Source: Thermoplasmata archaeon (GTDB lineage: Archaea; Thermoplasmatota; Thermoplasmata; Methanomassiliicoccales; Methanomethylophilaceae). From it: 64,000 nucleotides of DNA. The stretch is taken from NCBI GenBank assembly GCA_015063165.1, contig SUSZ01000007.1:1-64000 (forward strand). The letters run 5' to 3'. A program made the translations under genes and the position numbers. This document shows positions 45,397-51,231 of the stretch, in pieces. A model generated the notes under the pieces. It saw only the letters and a list, made by a program, of their open reading frames with translations, had not been told where the DNA came from and searched no databases. Each line of letters starts with the position of its first letter. The stretch's first letter is position 1.

Positions 45397-45617
45397 AGTG
45401 GTACCTCCTCGGATATTGTCCTTATCTGCAACTCTTATTTATAATATGACATTCGGCGGTTTCGATGGGCACTCCCTGTTTATAGTCGAACCGTGTTAAT
45501 GTGCTGACGAAACTTTTAAAATAGGGACATGATTAAGGGGCGTTTCCGTAATGGTTGCCCCAGTGGTAACGAGGACGGATGGCGCCAAAGCTAGCTGGCG
45601 GATTGGAGAACGATAAG
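45397..45617. other. Divergent promoter region ahead of secE
   Basis: Contains CTTTTAAAATAG at about 45510-45522 as the likely TATA box for secE, and a hairpin GGGGC/GCCCC (45537-45561) that would lie at the 5 prime end of the secE-spt5-rpl11 transcript. The minus-strand promoter of the small-gene pair is in the AT-rich DNA at about 45430-45445. No gene was recognised. Confidence 0.45.
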
Positions 45618-45842
45618 ATGGCTGAAGAAGAGTCAGTAATGCGCGGATTCTCGGACGAGTTCGAGTCCAAGGCCCGCGGTTTCGGAAAGGGGAAGTACGG
45701 AAAGATCCTCAAGACTGCTCACACCCCTTCGAGGGAGGAGCACAAGAAGACCATGTACATTACCGGTCTGGGCATCATAGCCATTGGTGCCATCGGTTTT
45801 GCTATCTGGTGGATCATGACCTGTCTGCCGACCTACTTCTGA
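45618..45842 (+). CDS. secE: Preprotein translocase subunit SecE (Sec61 gamma)
   Basis: A 74-residue protein with an amphipathic helix and a single C-terminal membrane helix (about 46-68, GLGIIAIGAIGFAIWWIM), preceded by the family PSREEHKKT segment. It clamps the SecY channel. It is the first gene of the conserved secE-spt5-rpl11 cluster. The ATG at 45618 is chosen because GGAG lies 11 bases upstream. Confidence 0.9.
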   Translation: MAEEESVMRGFSDEFESKARGFGKGKYGKILKTAHTPSREEHKKTMYITGLGIIAIGAIGFAIWWIMTCLPTYF

Positions 45843-45857
45843 TAAGGGGGTAGAAGG

Positions 45858-46796
45858 TTGCAGAAGAACGTTTCCGGCGAATACGACGACGACATGGATC
45901 TCGATGATGTCTACGAAGACGAAGGTCTCGAAGAGGAGTTCAAGGTCGTCGAGAAGGAAGAGCCCACCGTCTCCGAGCCTGTGATGCAGACCGGCGGCAT
46001 GTTCGCCACAGAAGAGGACTCCATAAAGAAGGTCTCTGCCGGAAGCATAGCCGAGTGGTTGTTCTCGATTTCCGTGAATGCGTCCCCGGCGACTCTATCG
46101 TTCTCAGTCGTTTCCGGGCGCGACGATGCTCCTGAATGGGAGGTCTCGCTGTTCGACGGGGCCACCGAGCTCTGGAACAGCGCCGTCCCTGTCGAGAAGA
46201 TCGAGATCAGCGCTTCCAAGTCGCTGAGGCTCTCCGCCGAGTGTCCTAGCGGAGTCAGATACGGTGATTCCATAGTCGTCACCGTTTCTGCCAAAAACAA
46301 CAGAGGATCCGACTCGATAAGCTTCGAGGCGGTAGCAAAACAGTCCATAATGATCCTTAAGACCCAGATCGACCAGGAGAAGACCGTGGCGAACGAGCTG
46401 TTCGGGAAGACGGTCAGAAACAGCGATAAGGGAGAACAGGACATCTATGCGATCCTGAGCCCTCAGGGACTCAGAGGATATGTGTTCGTCGAAGGGATGA
46501 ACACGGAACGTCTGCTGGAGAAGACCAGGGAAATCAAAAAAGCCAGGAACTTCATCAACGGCGAGACGGCCATCGGTGACATCGAGGCGTACCTCACCCC
46601 CGCATCCCCTGTCATCGGTATTGCCGAGGGAGACATAGTCGAACTCGTCAACGGACCCTTCAAGGGTGAGAAGGCTAGGGTCCAGAAGATCGAAGAGGTC
46701 AAAGAGGAAATCACGGTCGAGCTCATCGAGGCCATGGTTCCCATACCTGTCACTGTCAAAGGAGACAGCGTCAGAGTCATTGAAAAGGAGAAATGA
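45858..46796 (+). CDS. spt5: Transcription elongation factor Spt5 with long N-terminal extension
   Basis: A 312-residue NusG/Spt5 protein, about twice the usual archaeal length. Residues 1-55 are very acidic. Residues about 60-160 form a beta-rich, Ser/Val-rich domain resembling an immunoglobulin-like sandwich. The NGN domain spans about 163-245 and the KOW domain about 255-312 (GDIVELVNGPFKGEKARVQK). With Spt4 it clamps RNA polymerase. The TTG at 45858, with an AGGGGG ribosome binding site, fits the extension; internal ATGs lie within the acidic part. The extension could recruit other proteins. Confidence 0.9.
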   Translation: MQKNVSGEYDDDMDLDDVYEDEGLEEEFKVVEKEEPTVSEPVMQTGGMFATEEDSIKKVSAGSIAEWLFSISVNASPATLSFSVVSGRDDAPEWEVSLFDGATELWNSAVPVEKIEISASKSLRLSAECPSGVRYGDSIVVTVSAKNNRGSDSISFEAVAKQSIMILKTQIDQEKTVANELFGKTVRNSDKGEQDIYAILSPQGLRGYVFVEGMNTERLLEKTREIKKARNFINGETAIGDIEAYLTPASPVIGIAEGDIVELVNGPFKGEKARVQKIEEVKEEITVELIEAMVPIPVTVKGDSVRVIEKEK

Positions 46797-46799
46797 GAA

Positions 46800-47270
46800 A
46801 TGGTAGATACTGTTGAGGCAATGGTTGATGGAGGCAAGGCCACCGCAGGCCCGCCTCTCGGTCCCGCCCTGGGCCCTAAAGGAGTTAACATCGGTCAGGT
46901 CGTCGCCAAGATCAACGAGAAGACGAAGGCCTTCGCCGGGATGAAGGTCCCCGTGAAGATTCTCATCAACACCGACAAGACGTTCGACATCAAGGTCGGT
47001 ACTCCCCCCATGTCCGCTCTCATCAAAGGAGAGCTCGGCGTGAACTCCGGTGCGCACAACGCGAAAACCGAGAAAGTCGGAAACCTGACTCTCGACCAGG
47101 CGAAGAAGATCGCCGAGATGAAGCAGGACGACCTCCTCGGAGCCGACCTCAAGGCCAAGGTTCTCGAGGTCGCTGGAAACTGCGTCTCTGTCGGAGTCAC
47201 CATCGACGGCAAGGACCCCAAGGCGTTCACCGCTGCGGTCAAGGCCGGCGAGTACGACGACAAATTCTGA
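46800..47270 (+). CDS. rpl11: Large ribosomal subunit protein uL11
   Basis: A 156-residue L11 with the N-terminal GPPLGPALGPKGVNIG motif at about 17-32 and the rRNA-binding C-terminal domain. It shapes the GTPase-associated centre. Three bases separate it from spt5. A terminator follows, splitting it from the L1-L10-L12 operon. Confidence 0.95.
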   Translation: MVDTVEAMVDGGKATAGPPLGPALGPKGVNIGQVVAKINEKTKAFAGMKVPVKILINTDKTFDIKVGTPPMSALIKGELGVNSGAHNAKTEKVGNLTLDQAKKIAEMKQDDLLGADLKAKVLEVAGNCVSVGVTIDGKDPKAFTAAVKAGEYDDKF

Positions 47271-47277
47271 AACCATG

Positions 47278-47310
47278 GGGGCTCAGCCCCTGTCTTTTTC
47301 CTTCTTTTTC
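47278..47310 (+). terminator. Terminator after rpl11
   Basis: A short stem GGGGC/GCCCC with a three-base loop (47278-47290) is followed by CTTTTTCCTTCTTTTTC. It separates the secE-spt5-rpl11 unit from the L1 operon. Confidence 0.65.
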
Positions 47311-47370
47311 TATAGTCAAGGCCGCTATGGCTTCCAAGATGTGCTCCTGGTGTCGCGTCTTTAAATTAAC

Positions 47371-47449
47371 TTTAAATATAGGTTTTGTTTAGGGCGTTCT
47401 GCTTGTAGGAGAGTCGCAAGACTCGTTCGTACTACGAGGAGGAATTGTA
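47371..47449 (+). promoter_or_regulatory. Promoter and structured leader of the L1-L10-L12 operon
   Basis: TTTAAATATA at 47371-47380 is a good TATA box. The roughly 45-base leader contains a stem GAGTC-GCAA-GACTC (47411-47424, a GNRA-type loop) and ends with GAGGAGG before the TTG start. Archaeal L1 proteins are known to repress their own mRNA through a site near the start of the message, so this hairpin is a candidate, by inference. Confidence 0.5.
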
Positions 47450-48091
47450 TTGGCAGAAAAACCAACCGTAATGGCTGTGCAGAAGGCACTGGATAGTGCG
47501 AAGAAGCGCAATTTCACTGAAACGGTTGAGTTGGCCATCAATCTCACGGACGTCGACCTGACGATCCCCAAGAACCGTATCACGGAGGATATCATTCTCC
47601 CCAACGGTCGCGGAAAGTCGGTCAAGGTCTGTGTTATTGGTGGTGGCGAACTAGCCCTTAAAGCCAAAGACGTGGCCGATCGCGTCATCACCCCCGAAGA
47701 ACTCGGAGAGATCGCGAACGACAAGAAACAGGCTAAGAAGATCGTTAACAGCATCGATTACTTCATCGCCGAGGCTCCCCTCATGGCAGTCGTCGGTAAG
47801 AGGCTCGGTACCGTTCTCGGTCCTCGCGGAAAGATGCCTAAGCCCATCGCGCCCGGAGCAGATCCCACCGCGATGATCGAGGGTCTCCGCAAGTCTGTGA
47901 CCATCAGGACGAAAGACAGGAAGACTTTCCACGCACCCGTCGGAAACGTCAACATGAACGCCGAGGAGATCTCCGACAACATCGAGCTCATCCTCAAGCG
48001 TGTCGAGGCTCACCTTGAGAAAGGAAAGCACAACATCGCTTCCGTTTATGTCAAGACGACCATGGGACCGTCGGAGAAGATCGCATTGTAA
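47450..48091 (+). CDS. rpl1: Large ribosomal subunit protein uL1
   Basis: A 213-residue L1 with the family stretch GTVLGPRGKMPKP near 121-133. It binds the mobile L1 stalk of 23S rRNA and, in archaea, can regulate its own operon. The TTG start at 47450 has GAGGAGG seven bases upstream; the next in-frame ATG would remove eight conserved residues. Confidence 0.94.
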   Translation: MAEKPTVMAVQKALDSAKKRNFTETVELAINLTDVDLTIPKNRITEDIILPNGRGKSVKVCVIGGGELALKAKDVADRVITPEELGEIANDKKQAKKIVNSIDYFIAEAPLMAVVGKRLGTVLGPRGKMPKPIAPGADPTAMIEGLRKSVTIRTKDRKTFHAPVGNVNMNAEEISDNIELILKRVEAHLEKGKHNIASVYVKTTMGPSEKIAL

Positions 48092-48103
48092 GGAGGTTCA
48101 AAG

Positions 48104-49108
48104 ATGGCACACGTCGCAGCTTGGAAGAAGGACATGGTAAGCGAGCTGGTACAGGATATGCGCGAGTACCCCGTTGTCGCTATCGTCGACATGGAGGGTA
48201 TCCCCGGACAGCAGATCCAGTCCATGAGGGCCGGACTCAGGGCTCACGCGAAGCTCAAGATGACCAAGGACAAGCTCATTCTCCTTGCTCTCGATGAGAT
48301 CGCGAAAGAGAGACCCGGAATCGCAGACCTCAAGGATGCTGTTCACGGGCAGTGCGCGGTGGTCACCACCGACATCGACTCGTTCAAGCTCTTCAAGAAG
48401 CTCGAGTCGACGAAGACTGCAGCTCCCGCAAAGGAGGGGCAGCTTGCACCTTACGATATCGTCGTACCTAAGGGACCGACCCCGTTCGGACCTGGCCCGA
48501 TTATCGGTGAACTTCAGAAAATAGGCATTCCTGCAGCAATCGAGGCAGGAAAGATAGCAGTCAAGAAGGACACGACGCTCGTCAAGGCCGGAGAGCCGAT
48601 TCCCGGACCTGTCGCAGCGATGCTTCCCAAGCTTGAGATCCTCCCCATGGAGGTAGGTATGGACCTCAGGGCCGCCTACGAGGATGGTGTGATCTACAAG
48701 AGGGACGTTCTCGATATTCCTGAGGACTACTATTCCACGATGTTCGCTACGGCTGCACACGACGCCCTCGCGCTCGGTGTGTCGATCGCGTTCCCCACGA
48801 AGGATACGATCGTACCGCTCATTGCTAAGGCGTTCAGAGAGACAATGGGACTCTCGATCGCAGCCGCGATACCGACCAAAGAAAACATCGACAAGCTCCT
48901 GGCAAAGGCAGACGCGCAGATGCTCGCATTGGCATCCGCCGCTGGATACACCAACGACTCGATCGCAGCGAGGCTCAGCTCCGCCGCCGCAGCAACCGCT
49001 GCCGCACCCGCAGTCGAGGCATCCGCCCCTGCAGCAGCTGTCGAAGACGAAGAAGAAGAGGTCAGCGAGGAAGAAGCAGCCGCTGGCCTTAGTGCATTAT
49101 TCGGCTAA
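48104..49108 (+). CDS. rpl10: Large ribosomal subunit protein uL10 (P0)
   Basis: A 334-residue P0-type protein: rRNA-binding domain, an inserted domain, L12-binding helices, an Ala-rich hinge and the acidic tail [18 protein letters not shown] shared with L12. It is the base of the ribosomal stalk that recruits translation GTPases. 12 bp after rpl1. Confidence 0.95.
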   Translation: MAHVAAWKKDMVSELVQDMREYPVVAIVDMEGIPGQQIQSMRAGLRAHAKLKMTKDKLILLALDEIAKERPGIADLKDAVHGQCAVVTTDIDSFKLFKKLESTKTAAPAKEGQLAPYDIVVPKGPTPFGPGPIIGELQKIGIPAAIEAGKIAVKKDTTLVKAGEPIPGPVAAMLPKLEILPMEVGMDLRAAYEDGVIYKRDVLDIPEDYYSTMFATAAHDALALGVSIAFPTKDTIVPLIAKAFRETMGLSIAAAIPTKENIDKLLAKADAQMLALASAAGYTNDSIAARLSSAAAATAAAPAVEASAPAAAVEDEEEEVSEEEAAAGLSALFG

Positions 49109-49127: not shown

Positions 49128-49442
49128 ATGGAGTATATCTACAGTGCAATGGTGCTCTACTCTGCTGGCAAGGACATCACCGAGGACGCTATCAAGGCCG
49201 TCCTGACCGCCGCTGGAGTCGACGCTGACGCAGCCAAGATCAAAGCACTGGTTGCTTCTCTCGAGGGAGTCGACATCAAAGAGGCTATCGCAAGCGCAGC
49301 TTTCGCCGCACCTGCAGCCGCTGCCGCCCCCGCCGCTGGAGCCGCCGCTGCCCCTGCAGCCGCAGCCGCAGCCGAGGAGCCCGAAGAGGAAGCAGTCAGT
49401 GAGGAAGAGGCCGCAGCTGGACTTTCCGCTCTGTTCGGATGA
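49128..49442 (+). CDS. rpl12: Large ribosomal subunit protein P1/aL12
   Basis: A 104-residue stalk protein: N-terminal dimerization domain ([15 protein letters not shown]), a long Ala/Pro hinge (about 62-85) and the acidic tail ending [10 protein letters not shown]. Several dimers sit on L10. End of the ribosomal operon; TTTTTTAC about 35 bases after the stop may terminate transcription. Confidence 0.95.
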
Positions 49443-49508
49443 TCTGGTTGGTCTACCTGACTATCACAAACCTTTTACCTTTTTTTACACATTGTCGGCT
49501 TCGATATC

Positions 49509-49667
49509 ATGTTGGCGGAGACGTGCGACAGTTCCAAAGAATCCAAGTCTCCGCTTTTGGACGAAGTCCCCCTCCCGATCGAGGACCTCATCCGCGACGG
49601 TCGTCCGTTCTCTTTCGAAGAATCCGTGGAGCGCATGGTCAAGAAGCGCTTCGAGAAGGAGGAGTGA
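49509..49667 (+). CDS. 52-residue acidic protein coupled to the FtsZ-like gene
   Basis: Encodes MLAETCDSSKESKSPLLDEV, then PLPIEDLIRDGRPFSF and a charged helix ending KKRFEKEE. The tight coupling (stop TGA one base before the next ATG) and the AAGGAGG ribosome binding site of the FtsZ-like gene inside its 3 prime end suggest a paired function. A start-proximal ribosome binding site is not evident, so it may be leaderless or translated by readthrough from the L12 transcript. No family was recognised; it could be a membrane or filament adaptor. Confidence 0.5.
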   Translation: MLAETCDSSKESKSPLLDEVPLPIEDLIRDGRPFSFEESVERMVKKRFEKEE

Positions 49668-49668
49668 G

Positions 49669-50484
49669 ATGCAGGACGTCCTGGTGGTCGCCTGCGGAGG
49701 CGCTGGCCGCAACGTGTTCTCGGAAGCATCCGACATCCTCGATTGCCCTGTCATGCTGATCAACTCCAACAGCTCAAGCGACATCCAGCTGGCCCCGGAG
49801 GATTTCAGCGGATGCCGCGGGGACCCCGAGCTCGCTTTCACCCTTGCTTTCGACAACGTGGACGCCATAAAGGAGGCGTTCAAAGGGTATCGTGCCGTCA
49901 TAGTCTTCTCCATGCTCGGGGGAGGAACGGGAACCGGCATGGTGCCAGTGATACTCAAGACGGCCGCCGGCTGCGGATGCCGCACCATATCCGTCATGGG
50001 TCTGCCCATGATAGTCGAGAAGGAGAGGCGCGCGCTGGCGCAGGGAGTGCTGGCGGAGATCTCCGCCCATTCGGACCGCATGTACCTTCTGGACGAGGAC
50101 GCCGTCATACGCATGAGCCCCGATGCGAAAGCGCACAGCTTCTTCAAGATGATCGCCCACTCGATCATATTCACCGTGAAGTGCATCGCGGACCTCCTCT
50201 CAGGACCGTTCTTCACCACGTTCTTCGACAAGGTGTACACCTTCGCCTATGTATCCGACATGAATCCTGTAATGGCGGTGGAGAAGGCGGTGAACTCGTC
50301 CGTTCCGACTGTGGTCGACCCCATCGGAAGGATAGTCGTCGCTGTGAGCTCGGCGACCGGAAGCGTGGAGTCCGATGCGATCTACGACAAAGTCGCGGAT
50401 ATGACCGGGGTCATGCCGGACATAGTCCGCAGGAACGACAAGGAGGACACGAAGATGGTCGTGTTCTTCTCTGTCTGGAGCTGA
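49669..50484 (+). CDS. Divergent FtsZ/tubulin-superfamily GTPase
   Basis: A 271-residue protein with tubulin-fold nucleotide motifs: ACGGAGRN at 8-15, LINSNSSS near 30-37 and the signature GGGTGTG at 84-90, then MGLPMIVEKERRALAQG (110-126), which matches the FtsZ region where PF-x-x-EG-x-x-R is usual. It is much shorter than FtsZ (about 350-390), lacks the C-terminal tail, and the NxDxxD catalytic loop is not recognisable beyond Asp175. It may polymerise weakly, act as a regulator, or resemble the FtsZ-like families proposed to remodel membranes. The ATG at 49669 has AAGGAGG eight bases upstream. Confidence 0.75.
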   Translation: MQDVLVVACGGAGRNVFSEASDILDCPVMLINSNSSSDIQLAPEDFSGCRGDPELAFTLAFDNVDAIKEAFKGYRAVIVFSMLGGGTGTGMVPVILKTAAGCGCRTISVMGLPMIVEKERRALAQGVLAEISAHSDRMYLLDEDAVIRMSPDAKAHSFFKMIAHSIIFTVKCIADLLSGPFFTTFFDKVYTFAYVSDMNPVMAVEKAVNSSVPTVVDPIGRIVVAVSSATGSVESDAIYDKVADMTGVMPDIVRRNDKEDTKMVVFFSVWS

Positions 50485-51231
50485 TCACTCCTCTTTCTTC
50501 TTCTCCCAGGGCTTCCCGTGCCTGATGATCTTGGAAGCGTCCCCGAACACGCCCATGATGGTGTTGTACTCGTACTTGGTGGGGATCGAGCGGCCCATCA
50601 TCCTTCTGAACATGATGCGGGTCATCTCCCTTCTGTTGGGAGGGTACTCGATGGCGTCCATGAGCTCGTCGAAGAACCTGAACATGCGCTCCTTCTCGGC
50701 CCTGTCGGCAGGCTCGGGCCTCCTGTTCTCGTGGCAGGCCTGGAAGAACTCGTACATAACGATGTTTGCCGCATGGGACAGGTTCAGGATGGGATACTCC
50801 TCGCCCGAAGGGATGGTGATGAGGACGTCGCACATGTTGAGCTCCTCCTGGAGAAGGCCGATGTCTTCTCTTCCGAACACGATCGCGATCCTTTCCGGGT
50901 ATCCTCTGCAGTGCTCGGCGAACTCGCGGACGGGAACGGGCACGCGGGAGTAGTTCCTGTCGCCTTTGGTGGTGACTCCGCTGGTCCCAACGACGAGGAA
51001 GCAGTCCTTGACGGCGTCCTCGAAGCTGGTGACGATCTGGGCGTTGTCCAGGATCTGGGACCCGTGCTTGGATCTGCGGTAGGCGTCGTCTCCGAGCTCG
51101 CAGGGATTGACGAGGTACAGCTCCTTCACGTCGAAGTTCGCCATTGATCTCGCGATGGCGCCCACGTTGCCTTCGAACTTCGCTCCCACCACCACTATGC
51201 GGATGTCAGGCCCTACGGACGACTCCATCAT
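50485..51231 (-). CDS. trmJ: TrmJ-type tRNA 2 prime-O-methyltransferase (SPOUT)
   Basis: A 248-residue SpoU-family protein: N-terminal knot domain with VVVGAKFEGNVGAIARSMANF, the FGREDIGLLQEEL motif and IPSGEEYPILNLSHAANIV, the three SPOUT motifs in order, plus a helical C-terminal extension. TrmJ methylates the ribose of position 32 in tRNAs. Two adjacent ATGs (51231 and 51228) follow GAGGAGG at good spacing. Its stop abuts the stop of the FtsZ-like gene. Confidence 0.88.
   Translation of the reverse strand: MMESSVGPDIRIVVVGAKFEGNVGAIARSMANFDVKELYLVNPCELGDDAYRRSKHGSQILDNAQIVTSFEDAVKDCFLVVGTSGVTTKGDRNYSRVPVPVREFAEHCRGYPERIAIVFGREDIGLLQEELNMCDVLITIPSGEEYPILNLSHAANIVMYEFFQACHENRRPEPADRAEKERMFRFFDELMDAIEYPPNRREMTRIMFRRMMGRSIPTKYEYNTIMGVFGDASKIIRHGKPWEKKKEE

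Follow-up and report, generated by a model that had tools for sequence, protein, structure and literature searches.

We consider it probable that the two genes following rpl12 in the window (the whole stretch of 64,000 nucleotides analysed, from a Thermoplasmata archaeon of the family Methanomethylophilaceae) are a decayed RHH-FtsZ cassette of the cdrS-ftsZ2 type, and that the second of them encodes a protein, P0002, that is now a non-hydrolysing and probably non-filamentous protein-binding module. P0002 is not the founder of a new cytoskeletal family; it is a real, conserved but degenerate FtsZ, and the small ORF before it, P0001, is a probable regulator remnant. In euryarchaea FtsZ is the principal division protein, and its stepwise dismantling with living intermediates is a natural experiment on the purpose of FtsZ and on its possible replacements. 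In this gut methanogen family the residual FtsZ has lost the catalytic loop and appears to have gained a new conserved face. The features referred to are as follows, with window coordinates for all but the last.

45579..49108, + strand: SecE, Spt5, L11, L1 and L10 (gene order)
49128..49442, + strand: ribosomal stalk protein L12 (P1), upstream neighbour and synteny anchor (gene order)
49467..49477, + strand: CAAACCTTTTA, a conserved block downstream of rpl12, shared with close relatives (aligned gap sequences)
49509..49667, + strand: P0001, 52 aa, probable remnant of a second RHH repeat (RHH profile; slot of intact RHH genes in relatives)
49658..49662, + strand: GGAGG, Shine-Dalgarno-like site for P0002, inside the P0001 ORF (sequence)
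49669..50484, + strand: P0002, degenerate two-domain FtsZ, 271 aa (PF00091 match, AlphaFold, Foldseek)
49693..49713, + strand: T1 motif CGGAGRN, residues 9-15 of P0002 (ortholog alignment)
49918..49938, + strand: T4 motif GGGTGTG, residues 84-90 of P0002, intact in the window (ortholog alignment)
50203..50250, + strand: T7-equivalent segment GPFFTTFFDKVYTFAY, with NxDxxD absent and a new family-specific conserved motif (alignment)
50485..51231 (start approximate), - strand: TrmJ/SpoU-like RNA methyltransferase, convergent neighbour and synteny anchor (gene order)
G000:C40, about 98.8-100 kb (L001 1315-2437), - strand: GTPase-domain-only FtsZ (orthologs L044-L049 and L059-L071)

The gene order in the window is SecE (from 45579), Spt5 (45858), L11 (46800), L1 (47450), L10 (48104), L12 (49128), P0001, P0002 and TrmJ, and the initial annotation was right in placing the pair behind the stalk-protein operon, with Spt5-L11-L1-L10-L12 upstream. 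It was also right that the small ORF ends one base (49668) before the GTPase gene and contains its ribosome binding site, the GGAGG lying 6 nt from the P0002 ATG. P0002 alone gave no matches in the contig search, and the P0002-type loci were found with a profile made from the ortholog alignment. Among 30 such loci L12 lies within 450 bp upstream in 25 and there is a convergent TrmJ in 28; the names given to related loci include ‘Candidatus Methanomethylophilaceae archaeon’, and the samples are from rumen, omasum and colon. The P0002 type lies behind L12 in relatives too, but the small protein is eroded or lost in close relatives.

P0002 matches PF00091 at 47.5 bits, and as the cut-off is 33 this is not a chance match. 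The ftsZ equivalog model TIGR00065 gives 76 bits, far under its cut-off of 295, and Pfam finds no FtsZ_C domain (PF12327) in P0002, the scores for this domain being 69.7 bits in a sister-family ortholog and 20 in the intermediate G043. At 271 aa the protein has no C-terminal tail. AlphaFold, given P0002 and 13 orthologs, predicts for it a two-domain FtsZ fold (pLDDT 81.6, pTM 0.84), and with this model the 50 best PDB matches listed by Foldseek are all FtsZ, over about 300 aligned columns, with query-normalised TM-scores of 0.69-0.80 except for a single outlier at 0.51. The family profile matches M. jannaschii FtsZ1 (E 1.5e-20) at residues 4-176 only, and as the predicted fold covers the whole of P0002, both domains would be present with the second unrecognisable by sequence. 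By structure and profile matches only, no CetZ is among the named PDB matches shown for P0002.

Canonical FtsZ1 (M. jannaschii, PDB 1w58/1fsz) shares the two-domain fold and has a similar GTPase domain, but P0002 is without NxDxxD and without a tail, and has 271 aa against about 370. The FtsZl and Tubulin_2 families (PMC2875224) are, like P0002, non-canonical members of the FtsZ/tubulin superfamily, but P0002 has no match to their PF13809, and its structure and profile matches are to FtsZ. The initial annotation had described a tubulin/FtsZ-like GTPase of 271 residues with GGAGRN and GGGTGTG motifs and no tail, and all of this is present at 49669-50484, with the fold borne out by the structure prediction. 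Its proposal that the protein differs from canonical FtsZ stands on the absence of T7 and on the TIGR00065 score; the further proposal of an undescribed cytoskeletal GTPase or filament gives way, by gene order and intermediates, to a decayed RHH-linked FtsZ.

The roles of the T4, T6, T7 and H7 residues are known from established FtsZ structures, and the T7 loop of FtsZ inserts into the pocket of the next subunit. The T7 motif NxDxxD, whose absence had been noted for P0002 alone, is kept in none of 29 P0002-type orthologs: in the alignment neither the Asn nor either Asp is retained, and the region has a STFPK- or TTFFD-like segment followed by a deletion of about 10 residues. The aligned T7 regions of other genomes read NLDFADLKTVISHGG (G083), SVGMSKLRRMADESG (G043) and ESVYR------KMKGG (G037). 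The guanine-contacting Asn of T6 is also found in 0/29 P0002-type proteins, and elsewhere in 5/5 canonical FtsZ, 3/3 RHH-FtsZ of other families and 3/3 GTPase-domain-only proteins. T4 is canonical in 15 of the 29 and degraded in the other 14, and the H7 Asp is kept in 8. To judge from these alignments the P0002 type has decayed stepwise within Methanomethylophilaceae, at the T7 loop, the T6 Asn and T4.

With the T7 loop deleted and the guanine contacts gone, P0002 would be unable to form a full GTPase site together with an adjacent subunit, while folding like FtsZ and probably keeping part of the phosphate-binding pocket. Nucleotide binding may persist, since the protein of the window has an intact T4, and both E117 and R121 are conserved. 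We infer that P0002 neither hydrolyses GTP nor forms an FtsZ-like treadmilling filament, and that the former longitudinal-contact face (GPFF[ST]xF..K.YT.AY and the C-domain) now binds another partner, for which the GTPase-domain-only FtsZ is one candidate. The same losses argue against a GTP-hydrolysing filament, and so bear on the membrane-remodelling filament of the initial annotation; a polymerisation regulator or sensor, also proposed there, is possible, but there is no canonical FtsZ left in the cell to regulate.

It is unlikely that P0002, through a rewritten interface and with no classical T7 catalysis, still assembles into filaments for division or membrane remodelling, possibly together with GTPase-domain-only FtsZ, and so remains a working division protein. 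Such filaments would accord with the retention of both FtsZ domains, the intact T4 of the window protein, the strong conservation of the new motif on the T7 face and the finding of no other division system in our searches. However the loss of T7 and the guanine contacts extends to all of the orthologs and the degradation of T4 to 14 of them, and SepF, the FtsZ membrane anchor, is gone in the genus of the window. Further, several family members that retain the TrmJ locus have no gene of the P0002 type, and this type is thus unlikely to be the general division protein of the family.

A non-filamentous module need not be a dead one. The gene is under purifying selection and its ORF is retained in orthologs: dN/dS for the P0002 type is 0.07-0.26 across seven ortholog pairs, with the C-domain evolving more slowly than the N-domain in all seven and clearly so in six. 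The T7-equivalent segment is the best-conserved stretch, with a mean top-residue frequency of 0.74 against 0.40-0.54 elsewhere in the type. From these dN/dS values and this conservation P0002 appears to have been repurposed rather than to have lost its function, and the segment itself points to a repurposed contact face. That P0002 is a functionless, dying gene is very improbable: the absence of the type in several relatives, its decaying motifs, the near disappearance of the RHH partner and the lack of the usual stop codon in four relatives could be taken that way, but the dN/dS range, the absence of internal stops in any listed P0002-type match and the lineage-specific conserved motif all go against it.

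With regard to ancestry, the sister families (G072, G083) have a TrmJ-like gene convergent with a gene for an FtsZ of 342-343 aa, with NLDFADL intact, that is downstream of a tandem-RHH gene. Two tandem canonical ftsZ genes are a few genes away, just upstream of Spt5, which is followed by L11 in G083, and a SecE-like ORF is seen near them in G072. G043, in the same family as the window, has kept the RHH-FtsZ (321 aa) and TrmJ; the canonical tandem is gone, and the RHH-FtsZ adjoins SecE-Spt5-L11. The tandem upstream of SecE-Spt5 is gone from the window also, and in the P0002 type the cassette is on the other side of the ribosomal operon, between L12 and TrmJ. An RHH gene directly upstream of ftsZ is the known cdrS-ftsZ2 arrangement (PMC7439475, PMC8406309; also PMC9871819). 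The window resembles archaeal FtsZ2/CdrS in having an RHH gene, here reduced to 52 codons, upstream of an FtsZ-family gene, and the sister families hold an intact version at the locus; it differs in that P0002 lacks T7 and the guanine contacts and has an unrecognisable FtsZ_C.

The G037 intermediate joins the P0002 type in the tree at 100/99. The free tree places the P0002 group, weakly (90/78), beside another long-branched FtsZ-like family, the L036-L043 type, and a constrained clade of P0002 with RHH-FtsZ is not rejected by the tree test (p=0.27). With such long branches a single-gene tree cannot settle orthology, and it is thus gene order that carries the ancestry claim. On synteny and the intermediates G043 and G037, we take P0002 to be the ortholog of the RHH-linked FtsZ of the sister families, and by the order of the RHH and TrmJ genes to descend from the FtsZ of cdrS-ftsZ2-type loci, which the tree does not reject. 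It is improbable that P0002 came instead from a divergent paralog of the L036-L043 type that moved beside an RHH gene, as the free tree might suggest, for the branches of both groups are long, no RHH gene turned up next to L036-L043, and the RHH-FtsZ/TrmJ order of the sister families is found again in G043, in G037 and in the P0002 type.

P0001 is directly upstream of an FtsZ-family gene, as are CdrS-type RHH regulators, and in relatives with an intact RHH gene that gene fills the slot between L12 and FtsZ. The RHH profile matches P0001 at 13.8 bits over profile positions 52-89, a score reached by none of 20000 shuffles (best 12.0), and the pairwise RHH match is weak, with 51 of 5000 shuffles scoring as well. 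There is no Pfam match for P0001, and only the last part of the second RHH repeat aligns, the RHH domain being incomplete; in the tandem-RHH protein of the sister families one half clearly repeats the other (score 86, where the best of 2000 shuffles reaches 41). Between L12 and FtsZ the window has 226 bp; in relatives lacking a full RHH gene the distance is 129, 99, 97, 65 and 57 bp, a shrinkage indicating that the RHH slot is being eroded. P0001 is thus most likely a C-terminal remnant (the end of the second repeat) of an RHH regulator, and would probably no longer be a DNA-binding regulator.

In G034, G044 and G064 (L090, L089 and L096) the RHH gene is still beside TrmJ and the FtsZ-like gene is gone, the regulator there having outlived its partner; in G035 the RHH shows up only in an antisense reading. 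As the RHH gene is kept there without FtsZ, and is eroded beside FtsZ in others, the two are not obligate partners. The initial annotation had paired P0001 with the GTPase; the idea of an antitoxin or a dedicated partner was rejected, as relatives carry either a full RHH protein in the slot or nothing. Its description as acidic is true only in a mild sense (14 D/E against 9 K/R).

The only other FtsZ-family gene in the genome of the window, which is 99.86% complete, encodes the GTPase-domain-only protein (G000:C40), with T4 intact. It is preceded by an RHH-like gene, for which the Pfam RHH_8 match is below cut-off, and it groups with a type that sister families hold alongside canonical FtsZ. 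Proteins of this type (G000:C40, L044-L049) resemble P0002 in being short FtsZ relatives behind an RHH or RHH-like gene, but they keep T4 and the T6 Asn and have no C-domain, whereas P0002 keeps the C-domain and has lost those contacts. The GTPase-domain-only FtsZ is conserved across the order and nearly universal in the family of the window, and is the sole FtsZ relative in many members. There is also the divergent FtsZ-like paralog of sister families and class relatives (L036-L043), of about 270-370 aa, with no T7, no RHH neighbour and a mostly degraded T4 (e.g. GGETGS).

Canonical FtsZ exceeds the cut-off in 48 of the 120 genomes, and these are all 48 of the relatives outside Methanomethylophilaceae and none of the 72 inside, the best E values being 1e-106 or better in G072-G119 (outside) and 1e-64 or worse in G000-G071 (inside). 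SepF is present in 46 of the 48 genomes outside the family and weak in other genera of the family. In the genus of the window there is no credible SepF with the Pfam model (one partial match below cut-off) or with a family-specific profile (two partial matches inside long ORFs), and no PRC-barrel match in any of its 31 genomes; the other six genomes without a PRC-barrel match are, by subtraction, G031, the g12 genomes G041, G051, G060 and G067, and G084. Three genomes of the genus (G007, G014 and G030) are single contigs, and assembly gaps thus do not explain the missing divisome genes. To all appearances the genus retains P0002 and an FtsZ reduced to its GTPase domain, with the known archaeal divisome dismantled. 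In genera g1 and g12 of the family SepF and PRC-barrel are both missing alongside canonical FtsZ, an apparent co-loss of that divisome.

The actin model matched 0/120 genomes and, among the controls, bacterial ones only, so that a divergent archaeal actin could be missed. Snf7 (ESCRT-III) was not found in the family, but the model is insensitive, matching among the controls only Sulfolobus and that below cut-off, and the absence of ESCRT-III is therefore weak evidence. Vps4_C matches were considered as dedicated Vps4 and rejected, since they lie mostly in open frames of about 740 aa that look like CDC48-type AAA proteins. We put forward, as a tentative suggestion and not the likelier outcome, that the whole genus (31 genomes, three of them single-contig) divides without canonical FtsZ, SepF, PRC-barrel, actin or detectable ESCRT-III, either independently of known machinery or with a tubulin system split between two proteins, where the nucleotide face would come from the GTPase-domain-only FtsZ and the rewritten opposite face from P0002.

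A divisome-poor methanogen lineage is a more interesting result than P0002 alone. Makarova et al. 2024 (PMC10936438) reported that some Thermoplasmata genomes have FtsZ but neither SepF nor PRC, and that three genera have none of the three, which is a partial precedent for divisome loss. We found no literature on FtsZ in Methanomassiliicoccales or Methanomethylophil-, in a search that most subscription papers fall outside, so that an earlier description is possible, and FtsZ is unmentioned in two genome papers on Methanomassiliicoccales. For annotation, a PF00091-based call of ‘FtsZ present’ in Methanomethylophilaceae refers to proteins that are very probably unfit for the job of FtsZ.

The block CAAACCTTTTA is a possible promoter element of the cassette; it has 10 matches in the window at up to 2 mismatches against 5.1 expected, and 3 of 100 shuffles reach 10. 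A promoter and terminator scan at the locus gave nothing with a sigma-70 model, which is unsuited to archaea. At L004, L005, L008 and L019 the FtsZ-like frame is without the usual stop and continues, antisense to the convergent TrmJ gene, for some 85-290 codons more.
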